Source: Dehalobacterium formicoaceticum (GTDB lineage Bacteria > Bacillota > Dehalobacteriia > Dehalobacteriales > Dehalobacteriaceae). From it: a stretch of DNA of 64,000 nucleotides. Below the pieces are notes generated by a model. The model saw only the letters and a program-made list of their open reading frames with translations, was not told the DNA's origin and ran no database searches. Positions 1,303 to 18,531 of this stretch are shown here, piece by piece. The DNA is taken from positions 2,114,501 to 2,178,500 of the forward strand of contig NZ_CP022121.1 of assembly GCF_002224645.1 (NCBI RefSeq), read 5' to 3'. Position 1 is the first letter of the stretch. Each line of letters opens with the position of its first letter. A program made the position numbers and the translations under genes.

Positions 1303-1533
1303 ATTCAGGTGGATTTCTTTAATGAGGTGGATAAAAATCAATTTAAGGTAGTATTTTGGCGTGAACAACAGAGGGTGTAAGGATATGATTCGTGCGCCAC
1401 GCAGGGGCGCATAATATAGTGGGTGGAGAGAAAAAGTAAGGGCTAACAAGCAATAATGATAGATTCCCGGAATCAAAGGGTAAGCTAAAAATATTTTCTT
1501 TTCAGTGTCAGAACGAGGAACCGTCCCCTGTTT
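1303..1533 (+). repeat. 231-bp direct repeat, copy A
   Basis: This stretch matches 1833-2063 at a constant offset of 530 bases with no gaps and only scattered substitutions. It begins with the last 25 codons of the RecG-like fragment (IQVDFFNEVDKNQFKVVFWR, then the stop at 1378-1380) and ends in the GAACCGTCCCCTGTTT motif. It starts one base after the TPR stop codon. Confidence 0.9.
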
Positions 1534-1541
1534 GCCCCTTA

Positions 1542-1910
1542 GGTATTTTGGAAATTCCGGCAATTGCTTTAGAAGAAGCATTGATTAATGCAATTGTGCA
1601 TCGGAATTATTTTGTACAAAGCAACATTAGAATCTTCGTATTTGACAATAGGGTAGAAATTATTAGTCCGGGATGTTTACCCAATACGCTAAATGTAGAG
1701 GCGATAAAAACCGGCATTCATATTGCCAGAAATCCGATTTTGCTTTCTCATATCAAGGATATTAAGGATGTTCCCTATCGAGGCACTGGGATGGGAATTA
1801 CGAGGATCATCAGAAGCTGTAAGGAACAAGGCATTCAGGTGGATTTCTTTAATGAGGTGGATAAAAATCAATTTAAGGTAGTATTCTGGCGTGAGCAACA
1901 GAGGGTGTAA
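1542..1910 (+). pseudogene. RecG-like ATP-binding C-terminal domain fragment
   Basis: The frame from about 1542 to the stop at 1910 encodes a C-terminal HATPase_c_4-like domain, of the kind found in AlbA_2/'RecG C-terminal' transcriptional regulators. Visible motifs are ALEEALINAIVHRNY, VEIISPGCLPN and YRGTGMGITRI. Full proteins are about 400-500 aa with an N-terminal DNA-binding AlbA_2 domain; only about 120 residues remain. A copy of the 231-bp repeat ending in GAACCGTCCCCTG replaces the upstream part. The TTG at 1548 has no convincing ribosome site, so this is most likely a dead fragment. Confidence 0.7.
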
Positions 1911-2063
1911 GGATATGATTCGTACGTCACGCAGGGGCGCATCATATAGTGGCTAGAGAGAAAAAGTAAGGGTTAACAAGCAATAATAATAGATTCACGG
2001 AACCAAGGGGTATGCTAAAAACATTTTCTTTTCGGTGTCAGAACGAGGAACCGTCCCCTGTTT
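1833..2063 (+). repeat. 231-bp direct repeat, copy B
   Basis: This is the copy in its apparent original context, because its start is continuous with the upstream RecG-like reading frame. It holds the end of that frame plus about 150 bases of 3' flank, finishing at the GAACCGTCCCCTGTTTACC motif. Immediately after it the sequence switches to SNF2 helicase fragments. Confidence 0.9.
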
Positions 2064-2076
2064 ACCGCCCCTGTTT

Positions 2077-2380
2077 ACCGCTTCGTTGATCAGATTTTTC
2101 TTTTGCTGCTGCAGGCATAGATTTTTTCTTCGATGGTGCCTAAGGTAATGAATTTCAGCAGGTTTACCACCTTTTCCTGGCCGATGCGATGAGCCCGTCT
2201 GTGGCCTGGTCTTCCGCCGCCGGATTCCACCGACCCATCCACATAAAAATAGGGAATACCTTCCTGATCCACCAGGGCAGGCAGGGGATGCTGCTCTTTT
2301 TCCGTTCAATAATGTTGATTTTTCCATAGTTTTGCCCAATCCCATATCAGTCGGCGATAATCCCGCCAAAGCCGTAAGGC
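2077..2380 (-). pseudogene. Scrambled fragments of an SNF2 helicase gene
   Basis: Short blocks match the intact minus-strand helicase gene at 5343-8663 in the same order, with large pieces missing between them. About 2080-2228 matches about 5411-5567 (RAHRIGQEK region). About 2229-2270 matches 5703-5745. About 2281-2310 matches about 6608-6640. About 2330-2378 matches about 6655-6702 (the ADDMGLGKT Walker A region). Frames shift between blocks. It is a partial duplicate of the neighbouring gene or the remains of a paralogue. Confidence 0.8.
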
Positions 2381-2773
2381 AAAAAAGGGATGGGTTTTTT
2401 GTTTGACACAGATAGCCAAAGTTACTGATTTTACTGTTAAAAAGATTTACCTATGCTAGAACAAAGAACCGTCCCCTGTTTGTCCTCCCTGTTTGTCCCT
2501 CAAATGGATTGAATTTGTCCGCATCAAGCATGAAGAAGTCCATAGTAATACGGAATAGAAAAAAGAGATAAAGGGTGAAGAAGCGACGGCAAAAGTGAGT
2601 AATGGAAAAAAGATCAGTTAAAGGACGCGTGTCTAAGGTTATTTCCTTAAAAAATTCGGTATAGTCGGTAGAAATATCGGCTATGCCGTTTTTTAAATCA
2701 AACCTTTCTAGTAAAATAGTTAACAATACAGATAACGCTTTATAAGAGTGTGCTATAATAATTCAAGCGGGGT
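2381..2773. other. Intergenic stretch with no convincing gene
   Basis: Apart from the repeat motif at 2462-2500, only one minus-strand open frame of 91 codons (2451-2726) exists here. It runs through the repeat motif, has no recognisable domain and no clear ribosome site. It may be the remains of a longer gene, but nothing identifies it. An AT-rich promoter-like stretch precedes the XRE-like gene that follows. Confidence 0.4.
2462..2500 (+). repeat. GAACCGTCCCCTG repeat motif
   Basis: This site reads AAGAACCGTCCCCTGTTTGT followed by CCTCCCTGTTTGTCCC. The same core occurs at about 1519-1535 and 2049-2065, each at a junction between unrelated gene fragments. The related CCATGG-extended form flanks the Y1 transposase elements at 14.7-18.3 kb. 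Confidence 0.7.
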
Positions 2774-14137: not shown

Positions 14138-14212
14138 TTATAACTCCACCTTTTTAATAAGGGAATGAATTGTCGCTTTTCACTTTGTTCTTGCTGCAGC
14201 TTTATTTCTAGC

Positions 14213-14288
14213 AAGGCAGGCAAAATTAATTTATTTTCATTGTAATTAATCAGGGGTTACCGGTACTAATTAAGTAGAAGGATTAATA
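14213..14288 (+). repeat. 76-bp direct repeat, left copy
   Basis: Matches 18456-18531 at 74 of 76 positions, with no gap. The right copy leads straight into the ribosome site of the sigma-like gene at 18552. The left copy therefore looks like a duplicated promoter region cut off from its gene. The two copies bracket the RAYT/TetR/SnoaL segment. Confidence 0.9.
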
Positions 14289-14632: not shown

Positions 14633-14721
14633 TTAGAACAATTTTTTCGTTAGTATACCCGATAAACATGGATTTGCATATATTTCAGACATTGAAGTCA
14701 GAAAGTAATTAAATATGGAGA

Positions 14722-15579
14722 CCATGGGGACGGTTCTTGCGGTTTACAGCAAAATTCCTTGTATGATAAGATATTTTGGGGTGATTGAATAATGCCAAGG
14801 ACTGGAAGAATAAAGAGTAAAAGCGGTATATATCATATCGTAATGAGGGGTATCAATAAGCAAACCATCTTTGAAGAGGAAGATGACTCATTAATTTTTC
14901 TGGAAACGCTAAAAAAATATCAAGAAAAAACGGCTATAAAATATATGGATATTGCTTAATAGGAAATCATATTCATCTGCTGATTAAGGAAGAAAAAGAA
15001 GCTCTGGAAATAATAATGCGTCGCATAGGAGCAAGTTACGTGTACTGGTATAATCTAAAATATAATCGGTACGGGCATTTATTTCAGGATAGATATAAAA
15101 GTGAAGTGGTGGAAGATGAGAGCTATTTTTTAACTGTATTAAGATATATACACCAAAACCCGGTAAAAGCAGGAATAGTAGCTGATGCTGCAAATTATAA
15201 TTGGAGCAGTTATAATGAATATGTTGGTAAGAGGGCAATTGTAGATACCGATTTTGCATTGAGGATATTTAGTAGTGATAGGGAAAAGGCATTGGAAAGC
15301 TTTAAGAGATTTCATCAGATAAGCAGTGACGATCTTTGTTTGGATGTTAGTGAAAATAAAAGATTAACGGATAAAATGGTCGTAGAGATTATTAAGCAGA
15401 AATGCCGGGTAAATCATTGCAGTGAAATTCAGTCTGTGGAAAAGGATCAACGGGATAGATATTTGAAATTTTTAAAGGAAGAAGGACTTTCTACAAGGCA
15501 AAATGCAAGATTAACGGGTATAAGTAGGGGAATAGTTTTAAAAGCATAAAGCGACGAACCAGAAGAACCGTCCCCATGG
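14722..15579 (+). mobile_element. RAYT-type Y1 transposase element, copy 1
   Basis: The element is bounded by CCATGGGGACGGTTCTT (14722-14738) and its exact inverse AAGAACCGTCCCCATGG (15563-15579). It contains one Y1/HUH transposase gene. REP-associated tyrosine transposases (RAYTs) are single-copy-like relatives of IS200 associated with palindromic repeats; this arrangement and the nearby repeat array fit that group. Confidence 0.75.
14792..15549 (+). CDS. REP-associated Y1 (IS200-like) transposase, needs -1 shift
   Basis: ATG 14792 begins MPRTGRIKSKSGIYHIVMRG, the usual start of RAYT/Y1_Tnp proteins, and runs 55 codons to a stop at 14957. The -1 frame takes over at an A6 run (14925-14930) and continues to 15549 with the HUH motif GNHIHLL and the YIHQNPVKAG tyrosine helix. 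It ends with a helix-turn-helix-like tail (ARLTGISRGIVL). The joined product is about 250 aa, normal for the family. It nicks and rejoins single-stranded DNA. The shift is shared with the second copy, so it is either programmed or inherited from a broken parent. Confidence 0.75.
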
Positions 15580-15617
15580 TTACCCCCATGGTTACCCATG
15601 GTTACACCCAAAATTTG
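15580..15617 (+). repeat. CCATGGTTAC repeats after element 1
   Basis: The inverted end of element 1 runs on into TACCCCCATGGTTACCCATGGTTACACCC, the same unit that is amplified after element 2 at 18001-18296. Only about three units are present here. Confidence 0.6.
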
Positions 15618-15710
15618 TTGACCGTTTCTACCAAACGAACATATTCAATCGACTGCATCTACCAAACAAGCAAATTTTATCGACTGTATCTACCGAACCA
15701 ATAGGTTGAA
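15618..15710. repeat. Three 31-bp tandem repeats
   Basis: Three units of exactly 31 bases begin TTGACCGTTTCTACC, TCGACTGCATCTACC and TCGACTGTATCTACC. They share YCGACTG-N-ATCTACCRAAC-type sequence and diverge more at their right ends. They could be protein-binding iterons or part of a decayed element. The remaining stretch to 15972 has no convincing gene. Confidence 0.7.
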
Positions 15711-15972
15711 AATGTGCAATTGTTGTAATAAAAAAATCCGGTCGAGCCATCTGGAGTGCATGGTATTGATGTCAAGAGTTGAAAAATAGCAGGGCTAAAA
15801 ATGCCCATAAACAAGGGTTTCCAGACATTGTGTTTTTCTCCCAGCTACTTTGCCGAAGATGCTATGCCGGGAAACCCCCATTTTTATTGTACAAGGGAAC
15901 ATGTCAATTGCCCTGAAAGCGATAGCCGTCAATGTCGGAAAAGATGATGACAGTGCTTATTGGTATGACCAC

Positions 15973-16509
15973 TTATAGATTGCGCTCTAATAAAGTGCTA
16001 AGCTGTTCTGCTAGGACATGTGATGAAACCGGCCTTTTATTGATAAACCACCATTCAATTAGCCCTGTTATCGCGGACCCCAAAAAATGATAGACGATAT
16101 CCTTATGCACTCCACGGTTTATGCCCTCATCGAAATTAATTTCCATCCGCAATTGTTTCTTAACCATCTCCAGAAAGTGGCTGCTAAAGCAGTAGGCTCC
16201 TTTACTAGTCAGTATTGTGGAAAAAAACAAATAGTTGTTTTCAAAGTACACAGTCCACCTTAACAAGGCATCTTCGAGGCCAAAATCTGCTTTGGTTTTG
16301 CAAATTGCCTGGAGTTCATCCAAATGAGATGCTATGAGTTTATCTAACAGATCAAATTTATCAATATAGTGAAGATAAAAAGTTCCACGACTGACATTTG
16401 CCCGATCAGAAATATTCTGGATGGTGATGTTATCAAAACTCATTTCTGTCATCAGGTCAATAAATGCTTTTTTAATCGCAACCTGAGATTTAATTATTCT
16501 TCTATCCAT
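15973..16509 (-). CDS. TetR/AcrR-family regulator
   Basis: 178 aa. The N-terminal helix-turn-helix (about residues 24-46, ITIQNISDRANVSRGTFYLH, then YIDKFDLLDKL) is typical of TetR proteins. The C-terminal ligand/dimer domain resembles the TetR_C_8 type, ending with ITGLIEWWFINKRPVSSH. It should repress its own promoter or that of the divergent SnoaL-like gene. It lies inside the segment bracketed by 76-bp repeats. The inducer cannot be told from sequence. Confidence 0.88.
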   Translation of the reverse strand: MDRRIIKSQVAIKKAFIDLMTEMSFDNITIQNISDRANVSRGTFYLHYIDKFDLLDKLIASHLDELQAICKTKADFGLEDALLRWTVYFENNYLFFSTILTSKGAYCFSSHFLEMVKKQLRMEINFDEGINRGVHKDIVYHFLGSAITGLIEWWFINKRPVSSHVLAEQLSTLLERNL

Positions 16510-16548
16510 TTTTAACTACCCCCTCAAAAAATTTAAAGTGATAAATAA

Positions 16549-16648
16549 TGAACAAACACCTACTGTTAGTCTATTAATGTATAAATCCCGACTATTGCAC
16601 ATTGTAAGTATTATTTCATGATGTATAATTATATTAAACACTTGTTCA
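16549..16648. promoter_or_regulatory. Divergent promoter region with TGAACAA/TTGTTCA sites
   Basis: Between the divergent TetR and SnoaL-like genes, TGAACAA (16549-16555) and its inverse TTGTTCA (16642-16648) lie about 93 bases apart in AT-rich sequence. They are candidate TetR half-operators; the spacing is too wide for one dimer site, so each would have to be part of its own operator. Confidence 0.3.
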
Positions 16649-16785
16649 ATATTGTGTCAATGTTTATTTCGAGGTATGCTCATGAAAATCTACAAGGGAG
16701 GTGATAAAATAAGATGTGTTTTGTGATTGCTTGAATTTGGCTAATTGAAAAAATAATAATAATAATTATTTAGGGGTTGAAAAAA

Positions 16786-17208
16786 ATGACAATTGAACAA
16801 AACAAAGGAGTTATACGTGATTTAATCGAAGAGAATAGTGTTGATGGTATTGATGAACTATGTGCTTTAAATTTCGTTGGGCATCTTCCGTACTTTCCCG
16901 TTCCAGTAGGTAAAGCTGAGTTTCTTGAATTTGCAAAAATGCTATTCACTGCGTTTCCTGATTTGAATCATGATATTGAGTTTCAGGTAGCGGAAAATGA
17001 TATAGTTACCAGTTGCATAAATGTCAGTGGGACACATCTAGGAGAGTTTAAGGTGGGAGAGAATGAGGGGATACCAGCTACTGGTAATAAAGTTGAGTTT
17101 TATGATTTGCTTATCGCCCGGATGGAAAATGGTAAAGCAGTGGAGATATGGGCGCAATTAGATGCTTTAGGACTGCTGCGGCAGTTAGGTGCTCCCTTTT
17201 TGAAATAA
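16786..17208 (+). CDS. SnoaL-like polyketide cyclase/ester cyclase family protein
   Basis: About 140 aa, with AGGGGT eight bases before ATG 16786 (TTG 16777 is an alternative). The sequence fits the SnoaL/NTF2-like fold: helical N-terminus (NKGVIRDLIEE), an FPDLNHDIEFQVAENDIV strand pair, a GTHLGEF strand and the closing EIWAQLDALGLLRQLG. Members include cyclases, but many have unknown functions. It is transcribed away from the TetR gene, so it is the likely target of that regulator. Confidence 0.8.
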   Translation: MTIEQNKGVIRDLIEENSVDGIDELCALNFVGHLPYFPVPVGKAEFLEFAKMLFTAFPDLNHDIEFQVAENDIVTSCINVSGTHLGEFKVGENEGIPATGNKVEFYDLLIARMENGKAVEIWAQLDALGLLRQLGAPFLK

Positions 17209-17312
17209 TAGTGCAAGTGCACAGTCTAAGACCCATAGAAGTGAAAAATGGCAGCTATCCCGGGATGAGGGTAGCTACCATTTAGCGTGAGAGACCATGG
17301 GGACGGGGGAGA

Positions 17313-18029
17313 CCATGGGGACGGTTCGTGCGGTTTACGGCAAAATTCCTTGTATGATAAGATATTTAGAGATGATTGAACAATGCCAAGGACTGGAAGA
17401 ATAAAAAACAAAAGTAGTATATATCACATCGTAATGAGGGGTATCAATAAGCAATCCATCTTTGAAGAGGAAGATGACTCATTAATTTTTCTGGAAACGC
17501 TAAAAAAATATCAAGAAAAAACGGCTATAAAATATATGGATATTGCTTAATGGGAAATCATATTCATCTGCTGATTAAGGAAGAAAAAGAAGCTCTGGAA
17601 ATAATAATGCGTCGCATAGGAGCAAGTTACGTGTACTGGTATAATCTAAAATATAATCGGTACGGGCATTTATTTCAGGATAGATATAAAAGTGAAGTGG
17701 TGGAAGATGAGAGCTATTTTTTAATTGTATTAAGATATATACACCAAAACCCGGTAAAAGCAGGAATAGCAGCTGATGCTGCAAATTATAATTGGAGCAG
17801 TTATAATGAATATGTTGGTAAGAGGGCAATTGTAGATACCGATTTTGCATTGAGGATATTTAGTAGTGATAGGGAAAAGGCATTGGAAAGCTTTAAGAGA
17901 TTTCATCAGATAAGCAGTGACGATCTTTGTTTGGATGTTACAAGGCAAAATGCAAGATTAACGGGTATAAGTAGGGGAATAGTTTTAAAAGCATAGAGCG
18001 ACGAACCAGGAGAACCGTCCCCATGGTTA
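17313..18029 (+). mobile_element. RAYT-type element, copy 2 (internally deleted)
   Basis: The left end reads CCATGGGGACGGTTCGT, next to a second partial CCATGGGGACGG at 17295-17306; the right end merges into the AGAACCGTCCCCATGG repeat array. The interior is nearly identical to copy 1 except for a 144-base in-frame deletion in the transposase. High similarity shows recent duplication. Confidence 0.75.
17383..17996 (+). pseudogene. Y1 transposase, frameshifted and lacking 48 residues
   Basis: Starts MPRTGRIKNKSSIYHIVMRG at ATG 17383. The same A6 run (17516-17521) separates the two frames as in copy 1. The HUH motif GNHIHLL and catalytic tyrosine region remain. Residues from LCLDV jump to TRQNARLTG, a 48-residue loss just before the C-terminal helix-turn-helix, consistent with deletion at a short shared GTTA/TACAAGG sequence. 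It probably cannot act alone but could be mobilised by copy 1. Confidence 0.75.
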
Positions 18030-18296
18030 CACACCCATGGTTACACCCATGGTTACACATGGTTACACCCGTGGTTACATGGTTACCATCTCCCCGTGGT
18101 TATCCTAGAGCGGCGAACCAGAAGAACCGTCCCCATGGTTACCCCACCCATGGTTACCCCGAGCGGCGAACCAGAAGAACCGTCCCCATGGTTACCGAAG
18201 AACCGTCCCCATGGTTACCGTCCGAGCGGCGAACCAGAAGAACCGTCCCCATGGTTACCGTCCCCATGGTTACCCCCATGGTTACCCATGGTTATT
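18001..18296 (+). repeat. GAACCGTCCCCATGGTTAC repeat array
   Basis: About 13 units ending in ATGGTTAC or a close variant, five of them carrying the full GAACCGTCCCC head, often preceded by GCGGCGAACCAGAA. Spacing is irregular (10 to about 50 bases), unlike a CRISPR array. CCATGG palindromes are inside each unit. The open frames across it are by-products of the repeats. It directly follows RAYT copy 2. The remaining gap to 18455 holds no gene. Confidence 0.85.
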
Positions 18297-18455
18297 GATG
18301 CGTTTGTTCATAAGGTACCCATCCTTTAATAAACTTCATTATAATAATAACAGTATAACCTATAAGCAAGACTTTGCAAACACTTTCGGACATCGAAGTC
18401 TGAAAGTGTTTGCATTTTAAAGTTTCGGAACTGCAGTATAATTATTTTTTCAAAT

Positions 18456-18531
18456 AAGGCAGGCAAAATTAATTTATTTTCATTGTAATGAATCAGGGGT
18501 TTCCGGTACTAATTAAGTAGAAGGATTAATA
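18456..18531 (+). repeat. 76-bp direct repeat, right copy
   Basis: Partner of 14213-14288. It is followed at once by ACCGGAGGAGG, the ribosome site of the sigma-like gene. This copy is therefore probably the original promoter region. Confidence 0.9.

Follow-up and report, generated by a model that had tools for sequence, protein, structure and literature searches.

Two Decayed Y1 Transposase Genes and Their Ends

The window analyzed here is a stretch of 64,000 bases (positions 2114501–2178500) of the 3.77-Mb, one-contig genome of Dehalobacterium formicoaceticum. It carries two Y1 (HUH) transposase genes, at 14792–15549 and 17383–17996, each bounded by inverted ends, and the second is followed by an array of repeat units. 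The two elements comprise the following features.

14718–14760 (no strand): left end of copy 1 (GAGACCATGGGGACGGTTCTTGCGGTTTAC), inverted, with the fixed core, a weak stem, and an inverted match to the right end
14792–15549 (+): Y1 transposase gene copy 1, with an A-run frameshift
15551–15610 (no strand): right end of copy 1, ACGAACCA-GAAGAACCGTCCCCA-TGGTTACC, then two extra CCATGGTTAC units
17294–17345 (no strand): left end of copy 2, with one additional partial unit (GAGACCATGGGGACGGGG)
17383–17996 (+): Y1 transposase gene copy 2, with an A-run frameshift and an internal deletion near its 3' end
17998–18296 (no strand): right end of copy 2 and the array

The sequence CCATGGGGACGGTTC is inverted at both ends of copy 1 (14722–14736 and 15565–15579) and of copy 2 (17313–17327 and 18012–18026), a placement that shuffled sequences do not reproduce. 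Across the window, GAACCGTCCCC occurs 11 times exactly and 12 times with one mismatch (0.88 in shuffles), and CCATGGTTAC occurs 21 times with at most one mismatch versus 3.4 in shuffles. The array at 18012–18296 holds 14 CCATGGTTAC-type units (at most one mismatch), five of which have the full GAACCGTCCCC core. The initial annotation, made from the window alone, had described inverted ends around both genes and about 13 irregular units after copy 2, seeded at the transposase end; the first two points hold, and the third fits what we found.

The A-run frameshift is common to both copies, and the internal deletion is specific to copy 2. An intact gene of their type, the sibling L033, is located at 1.019 Mb. 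The three copies are 89–93% identical, and their homology stops at the hairpin ends; therefore, the gene moved or was copied together with its ends. Programmed frameshifting was considered and rejected, because the reading frames of L033 and other genes are continuous.

Hairpin Ends Combine an Almost Constant Loop with Covarying Arms

Both flanks (238 in total) of 119 nonredundant related genes, nearly all from Firmicutes, were inspected. A CGTCCC or CTGTCCC core (equivalently, GGGACG or GGGACAG) is present at 195 of the 238 flanks. The loop is ∼12–16 nt long and nearly fixed, with GAACCGTCCC the commonest sequence, followed by ACCCCGTCCC, ACCTGTCCC, and AAAACGTCCC; its form is AGAACCGTCCCC, with sister groups that have ACCCCGTCCCC or ACCTGTCCCC. 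The arms vary yet pair with each other (AACCA/TGGTT, AAACA/TGTTT, GTGTCA/TGACAC, GGAAGCA/TGCTTCC, TGAGTCA/TGACTCA, and others), and 73 different outer arms were recorded. The stem of the window elements is AACCA/TGGTT around the loop GAAGAACCGTCCCCA.

Covariation of the stem was evaluated by taking the first core of each flank irrespective of pairing and permuting outer arms between ends 1,000 times. Across 195 ends of 119 loci, the mean stem is 5.58 bp, versus 3.51 bp with permuted arms and 3.76 bp in the highest of the 1,000 permutations. Stems of at least 5 bp form at 62% of ends (16% with permuted arms). CA/TG usually makes up the first pair. The four that follow are Watson–Crick in 62–73% of ends versus 29–39% after permutation, and all four pair types occur at each of these positions (pairs 1–4 outside the CA/TG step). 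The best natural ends are predicted to fold well as single-stranded DNA, whereas the degraded right end in the window is not. Among the 195 ends read, there is no regular GTAG or GTGG foot of the kind found in canonical repetitive extragenic palindromic (REP) sequences, nor are the loops 2–5 nt long. Judged by these comparisons of sequence, the ends are not plain inverted repeats but hairpins in which the loop is almost constant and the stem covaries.

Transposases Are of the REP-Associated Tyrosine Type

All 49 aligned members match Y1_Tnp (PF01797). In these members H60-x-H62, N123, and P124 are invariant and Y119 is at least 90% conserved, giving the H-x-H and Y-x-x-N-P motifs. The NCBIfam model for REP-associated tyrosine transposases (RAYTs; NF047646) scores gene L032 above its cut-off and L033 at 79.1 versus a cut-off of 80, and a profile matches TnpA-REP (4ER8) at 3e-8. 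The predicted structure (predicted local distance difference test score of 91) has 4ER8 as its best match among solved folds, followed by the ISDra2 and IS608 transposases, and ends in C-terminal helices (194–251). A helix-turn-helix (HTH) domain, HTH_23, is matched weakly in 7 of 49 members, in L033 below the curated cut-off, and other HTH models are matched in a few. The protein is thus a REP-associated tyrosine transposase, as first proposed from the window, and is of the TIRYT and probably the TnpA-Y1 subclass 2.1 type; the subclass placement follows from length, motifs, and type of terminal inverted repeat (TIR).

Dispersed Repeats Share Stems with Y1 Genes of the Same Genome

In the home genome, AGAACCGTCCCC has 65 exact occurrences versus one for the reversed control pattern, an excess in line with what was expected from the window, and the copies often form inverted pairs. 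Among 86 cores inspected in repeat-bearing stretches of the genome, outer arms are of the TGTTT/C type in 70 and of the TGG type in 14. Adjacent cores within 120 bp are in outward −+ order in 19 pairs and in +− order in none, which is the arrangement of REP doublets forming hairpins (REPINs). The genome has four intact Y1 genes, each with its own end type, and the TGTTT/C family goes with one different from the window type, L031 at 3.2527 Mb, whose ends read AACAAAGAACCGTCCCCTGTT. Copies of this family in the window include the following.

2380–2500 (+): dispersed copy of the TGTTT family, resembling a miniature inverted-repeat transposable element (MITE), with its core at 2466–2476 and an iterated tail

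The window's CCATGG repeat was evaluated as a dispersed family and rejected, given the 70 of 86 cores that are of the TGTTT/C type; the CCATGG type is found almost only at transposase ends. The palindromic CCATGG unit of the initial annotation is replaced by a stem around a fixed loop, of a class that has hardly spread. A second type of hairpin (GTGGGACAAG-gta-CCTGTCCC-CTTGTCCCAC), followed by an iterated tail of its own, is located ∼100 bp downstream of the L033 gene, by its right end.

Other genomes show the same partnership. Two stem families account for most dispersed cores of genome G002, each matching a Y1 gene there: copies with ATTCAATTCA/TGAATT and TGAGTCA/TGACTCA match L119 and L117. 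A comparison of how well inner and outer arms are conserved in G002 gave a suggestive result, but its rows had been picked by family resemblance and it does not count toward the evidence here. In genome G333, GTGTCA/TGACAC and CCGCACA/TGTGCGG families match L171 and L165. Among 398 Firmicutes genomes, whose species are not independent, at least five cores are present in 75 of 136 with the transposase versus 13 of 262 without (Fisher odds ratio of 23.5). The link between repeat and transposase in related genomes is thus strong; core counts, odds ratio, and matching stems all point to a dispersed palindromic repeat partnered with a Y1 gene, and, as far as sequence can tell, the stem of the dispersed repeats is that of a resident Y1 gene. 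In a draft genome of ∼250 contigs (G398), we found 66 copies of AGAACCGTCCCC and no Y1_Tnp; the gene may be lost or absent from the assembly.

Array Units Share Their Outer Edge and Differ in Inner Start

Units in the array of copy 2 share an end point, TGGTTAC(C), and their inner start points vary. To place this in context, further copies of the 6-nt outer arm were sought up to 100 bp outward of the 121 ends with stems of at least 5 bp. An extra outward copy is present at 33 of them (27%), versus a mean of 4.4 (4%) and a maximum of 9 with permuted arms. Extra arm copies number 50 outward and 6 inward. As a control, 697 unrelated hairpins from these loci were inspected, and an outward copy accompanies 5% of them. 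Successive units match each other over 0–37 nt inward and, outward, over a median of 2 nt past the 6-nt arm.

Three longer duplications in the home genome reach 396, 225, and 224 bp inward into neighboring sequence and 9–11 bp outward of the core. One of the three is in the window.

1305–1533 (+): one-ended duplicate, first copy, which stops just outside a dispersed TGTTT-type core at 1518–1528
1838–2070 (+): one-ended duplicate, second copy, which stops just outside a core at 2048–2058

Both copies stop just outside a core, bearing out the earlier remark that the core marks rearranged junctions at 1.5–2.5 kb. From these alignments, the rule of the arrays is a fixed outer edge with a variable inner start.

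A Proposed Single-Strand Model and Its Alternatives

We suggest that these elements are probably single-strand Y1 elements whose hairpin ends mobilize REPIN- or MITE-like copies and, as an inferred last step, are reiterated once the outer foot has been cut. Each end would present a nearly fixed loop with a CA/TG closing step, followed by about four base pairs that vary among elements. The transposase would bind the folded end via the loop and cleave it where the stem has its outer foot. Paired ends would move the whole gene, of which there are three copies here, and, acting in trans, would move short inverted-pair derivatives carrying the same stem. The products of cleavage by HUH enzymes are a 5'-phosphotyrosine and a 3'-OH, and REPs have been proposed to spread by priming as well as by strand transfer (PMC8266576). 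A cut at one end would leave a 3'-OH at the outer arm that, if reused without a proper second end, would yield tandem units that share their outer edge and begin at different inner points, such as the array in the window. The ends and their covarying stem, the matching stems of dispersed repeats, the unit copies, and the one-ended units are read directly from sequence; recognition of the loop, the position of the cut, and the transposase as the cause of the arrays are what the model would add.

Several points weigh against the model. Stems are under 5 bp at 38% of ends, and the right ends in the window pair over only 5 bp with a predicted fold no better than that of shuffles. The permutation of arms leaves relatedness between elements in place, which is the main weakness of the stem test. 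At least five cores are present in 13 genomes without a transposase of this type, with 66 in one; a Y1_Tnp domain is present in 5 of the 13, mostly as a shorter type or as fragments. No clean empty site was found in loci from the genus of genome G317, so cut position and target are conjectural; one site there has a different inverted pair in each of three species, a second has a decayed copy, and one core is located at a rearrangement junction. Arrays could also arise without the transposase.

The last point has a specific form, which we regard as possible though doubtful, in which the transposase makes and moves the ends and has no role in growth of the tails, and arrays result from ordinary replication slippage or template switching at the hairpin. 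Short tandem units beside foldable sequence are a classic setting for slippage, arrays also adjoin broken genes and dispersed copies, and the C runs flanking many unit junctions could supply microhomology. But slippage does not predict a fixed outer edge with an inner start that ranges over 0–37 nt and up to 396 bp, and the unrelated hairpins of the same loci have outward copies about as often as permuted arms do, far below the frequency at the ends. Recognition of the ends as plain double-stranded TIRs, for example by the HTH-like C-terminal part and with no single-strand role for stem pairing, is improbable. Earlier work did name such ends TIRs and find HTH domains (PMC3733652, PMC6006769), and the weak HTH similarity of some members and the poor folding of the window ends agree with it; however, arms that vary and remain complementary are expected from pairing rather than from sequence-specific binding of a duplex, and the structurally solved Y1 enzymes act on single-stranded hairpins.

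We give similarly little credence to the proposal that hosts keep the dispersed pairs as terminators or regulatory hairpins, with a domesticated Y1 gene, as has been argued for some RAYTs, and only ancient mobility. One intergenic slot occupied by three different inverted pairs in three species, as if a hairpin were useful there, and the several genomes with repeats and no gene are consistent with domestication, whereas three near-identical gene copies (two decayed) in one genome and fresh one-ended duplications look mobile. The stem itself may have another use, in that the inner arm pairs with the outer arm and this may or may not be a guide–target pair in the style of IS200/IS605. It is conceivable, though we think it unlikely, that each element encodes an address of ∼4–6 nt in its inner arm and that the outer arm is the cut or target site. 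Under the same unlikely premise, loop and enzyme would be kept while addresses are swapped, and an element's own end would be its best target, so one-ended fragments would keep reinserting there.

Comparison with Known Systems

The closest described elements are TIRYTs, or TIRtrons, which are Y1 genes with GGGGWSAS-like TIRs (Di Nocera et al. 2013, PMC3733652). Some of their TIRs are partly self-complementary and some are dispersed as dimers or clusters (PMC3733652). The elements studied here likewise have a RAYT-like Y1 gene between TIRs near GGGGWSAS (GGGGACGG and GGGGACAG); GGGGACGG of the window is one position off this consensus, and the core recurs at most flanks of related genes (195 of 238). 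They differ in that a hairpin is the general form of the TIR, its loop fixed, its stem covarying, and its outer arms iterated, across ∼100 Firmicutes elements, and Firmicutes are not mentioned in the text of the TIRYT paper (PMC3733652). In a later classification, subclass 2.1 takes in most TIRYTs (Quentin et al. 2018, PMC6006769). Its NH-x-H and Y-x-x-NP motifs and length of ∼240–250 aa are shared here, and its C-terminal extension with HTH-like traces may have a counterpart in the C-terminal helices. No REP-like structures were found near subclass 2.1 genes by automatic or manual search (PMC6006769); the search model used loops of 2–5 nt (or an added bulged stem), and copies within a genome had low similarity (PMC6006769). 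By contrast, the ends described here are regular hairpins with loops of ∼12–16 nt, and the three copies are ∼90% identical. It was fair to call the arrangement less familiar in Firmicutes, as the initial annotation did, but the kind of element was already known as TIRYT/TIRtron (PMC3733652) and TnpA-Y1 subclass 2.1 (PMC6006769).

REPtrons and REPINs with group 2–3 RAYTs (Escherichia coli TnpA-REP, Pseudomonas) also have a Y1 transposase with its own type of repeat, inverted pairs, and 4ER8 as the top fold. Unlike in those systems, the repeats here have no GTAG foot, recognition is presumably in the large loop, and the gene moves with its ends. With IS200/IS605 elements (IS608, ISDra2), subterminal hairpins are in common and Y1/HUH single-strand chemistry presumably is; IS200/IS605 elements choose their site by base pairing with a guide, which may have a counterpart here. 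Unlike in IS200/IS605, no short guide was identified 5' of the hairpin, the ends are symmetric inverted repeats, the protein is longer, and no tnpB was noted. Among the papers searched, there is no mention of this repeat in this sense and nothing that joins REPINs, RAYT, and Firmicutes. Three findings are new in our view: a general hairpin form whose large loop is fixed and whose stem covaries, the match of this stem to repeats dispersed in Firmicutes genomes, and the arrays of one-ended units.

Additional Features of the Region and of Related Loci

A direct repeat of 87 nt (93% identical) at 14202–14288 and 18445–18531 is outside both Y1 copies and brackets the whole region. Between the copies are a gene that, judged by eye, reads like a TetR-type regulator (15973–16509, −) and one for a small protein that is SnoaL-like by eye (16777–17208, +). 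Three tandem 31-nt units that are 68–74% alike directly follow the tail of copy 1 (15620–15712).

In the loci from the genus of G317, an orthologous intergenic site in three species (L240, L241, and L237:13380–13720) is occupied by different inverted hairpin pairs whose stems and loop types differ, as if the slot had been refilled. At ∼8262–8296 of L237 (∼221.8 kb of contig C5 of G317), a core is at a rearrangement breakpoint and its flanks match different places in the sister species.

Implications

Y1 transposases of subclass 2.1 are a large group of RAYTs without a previously described hairpin substrate. The hairpin end described here, whose loop is fixed and whose stem covaries, is a concrete candidate for this substrate, and it explains families of repeats in many Firmicutes. 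One-ended arrays make the origin and multiplication of REPs testable. If the arms of the stem do act as guide and target, these enzymes would be a family of naturally re-addressable single-strand transposases.

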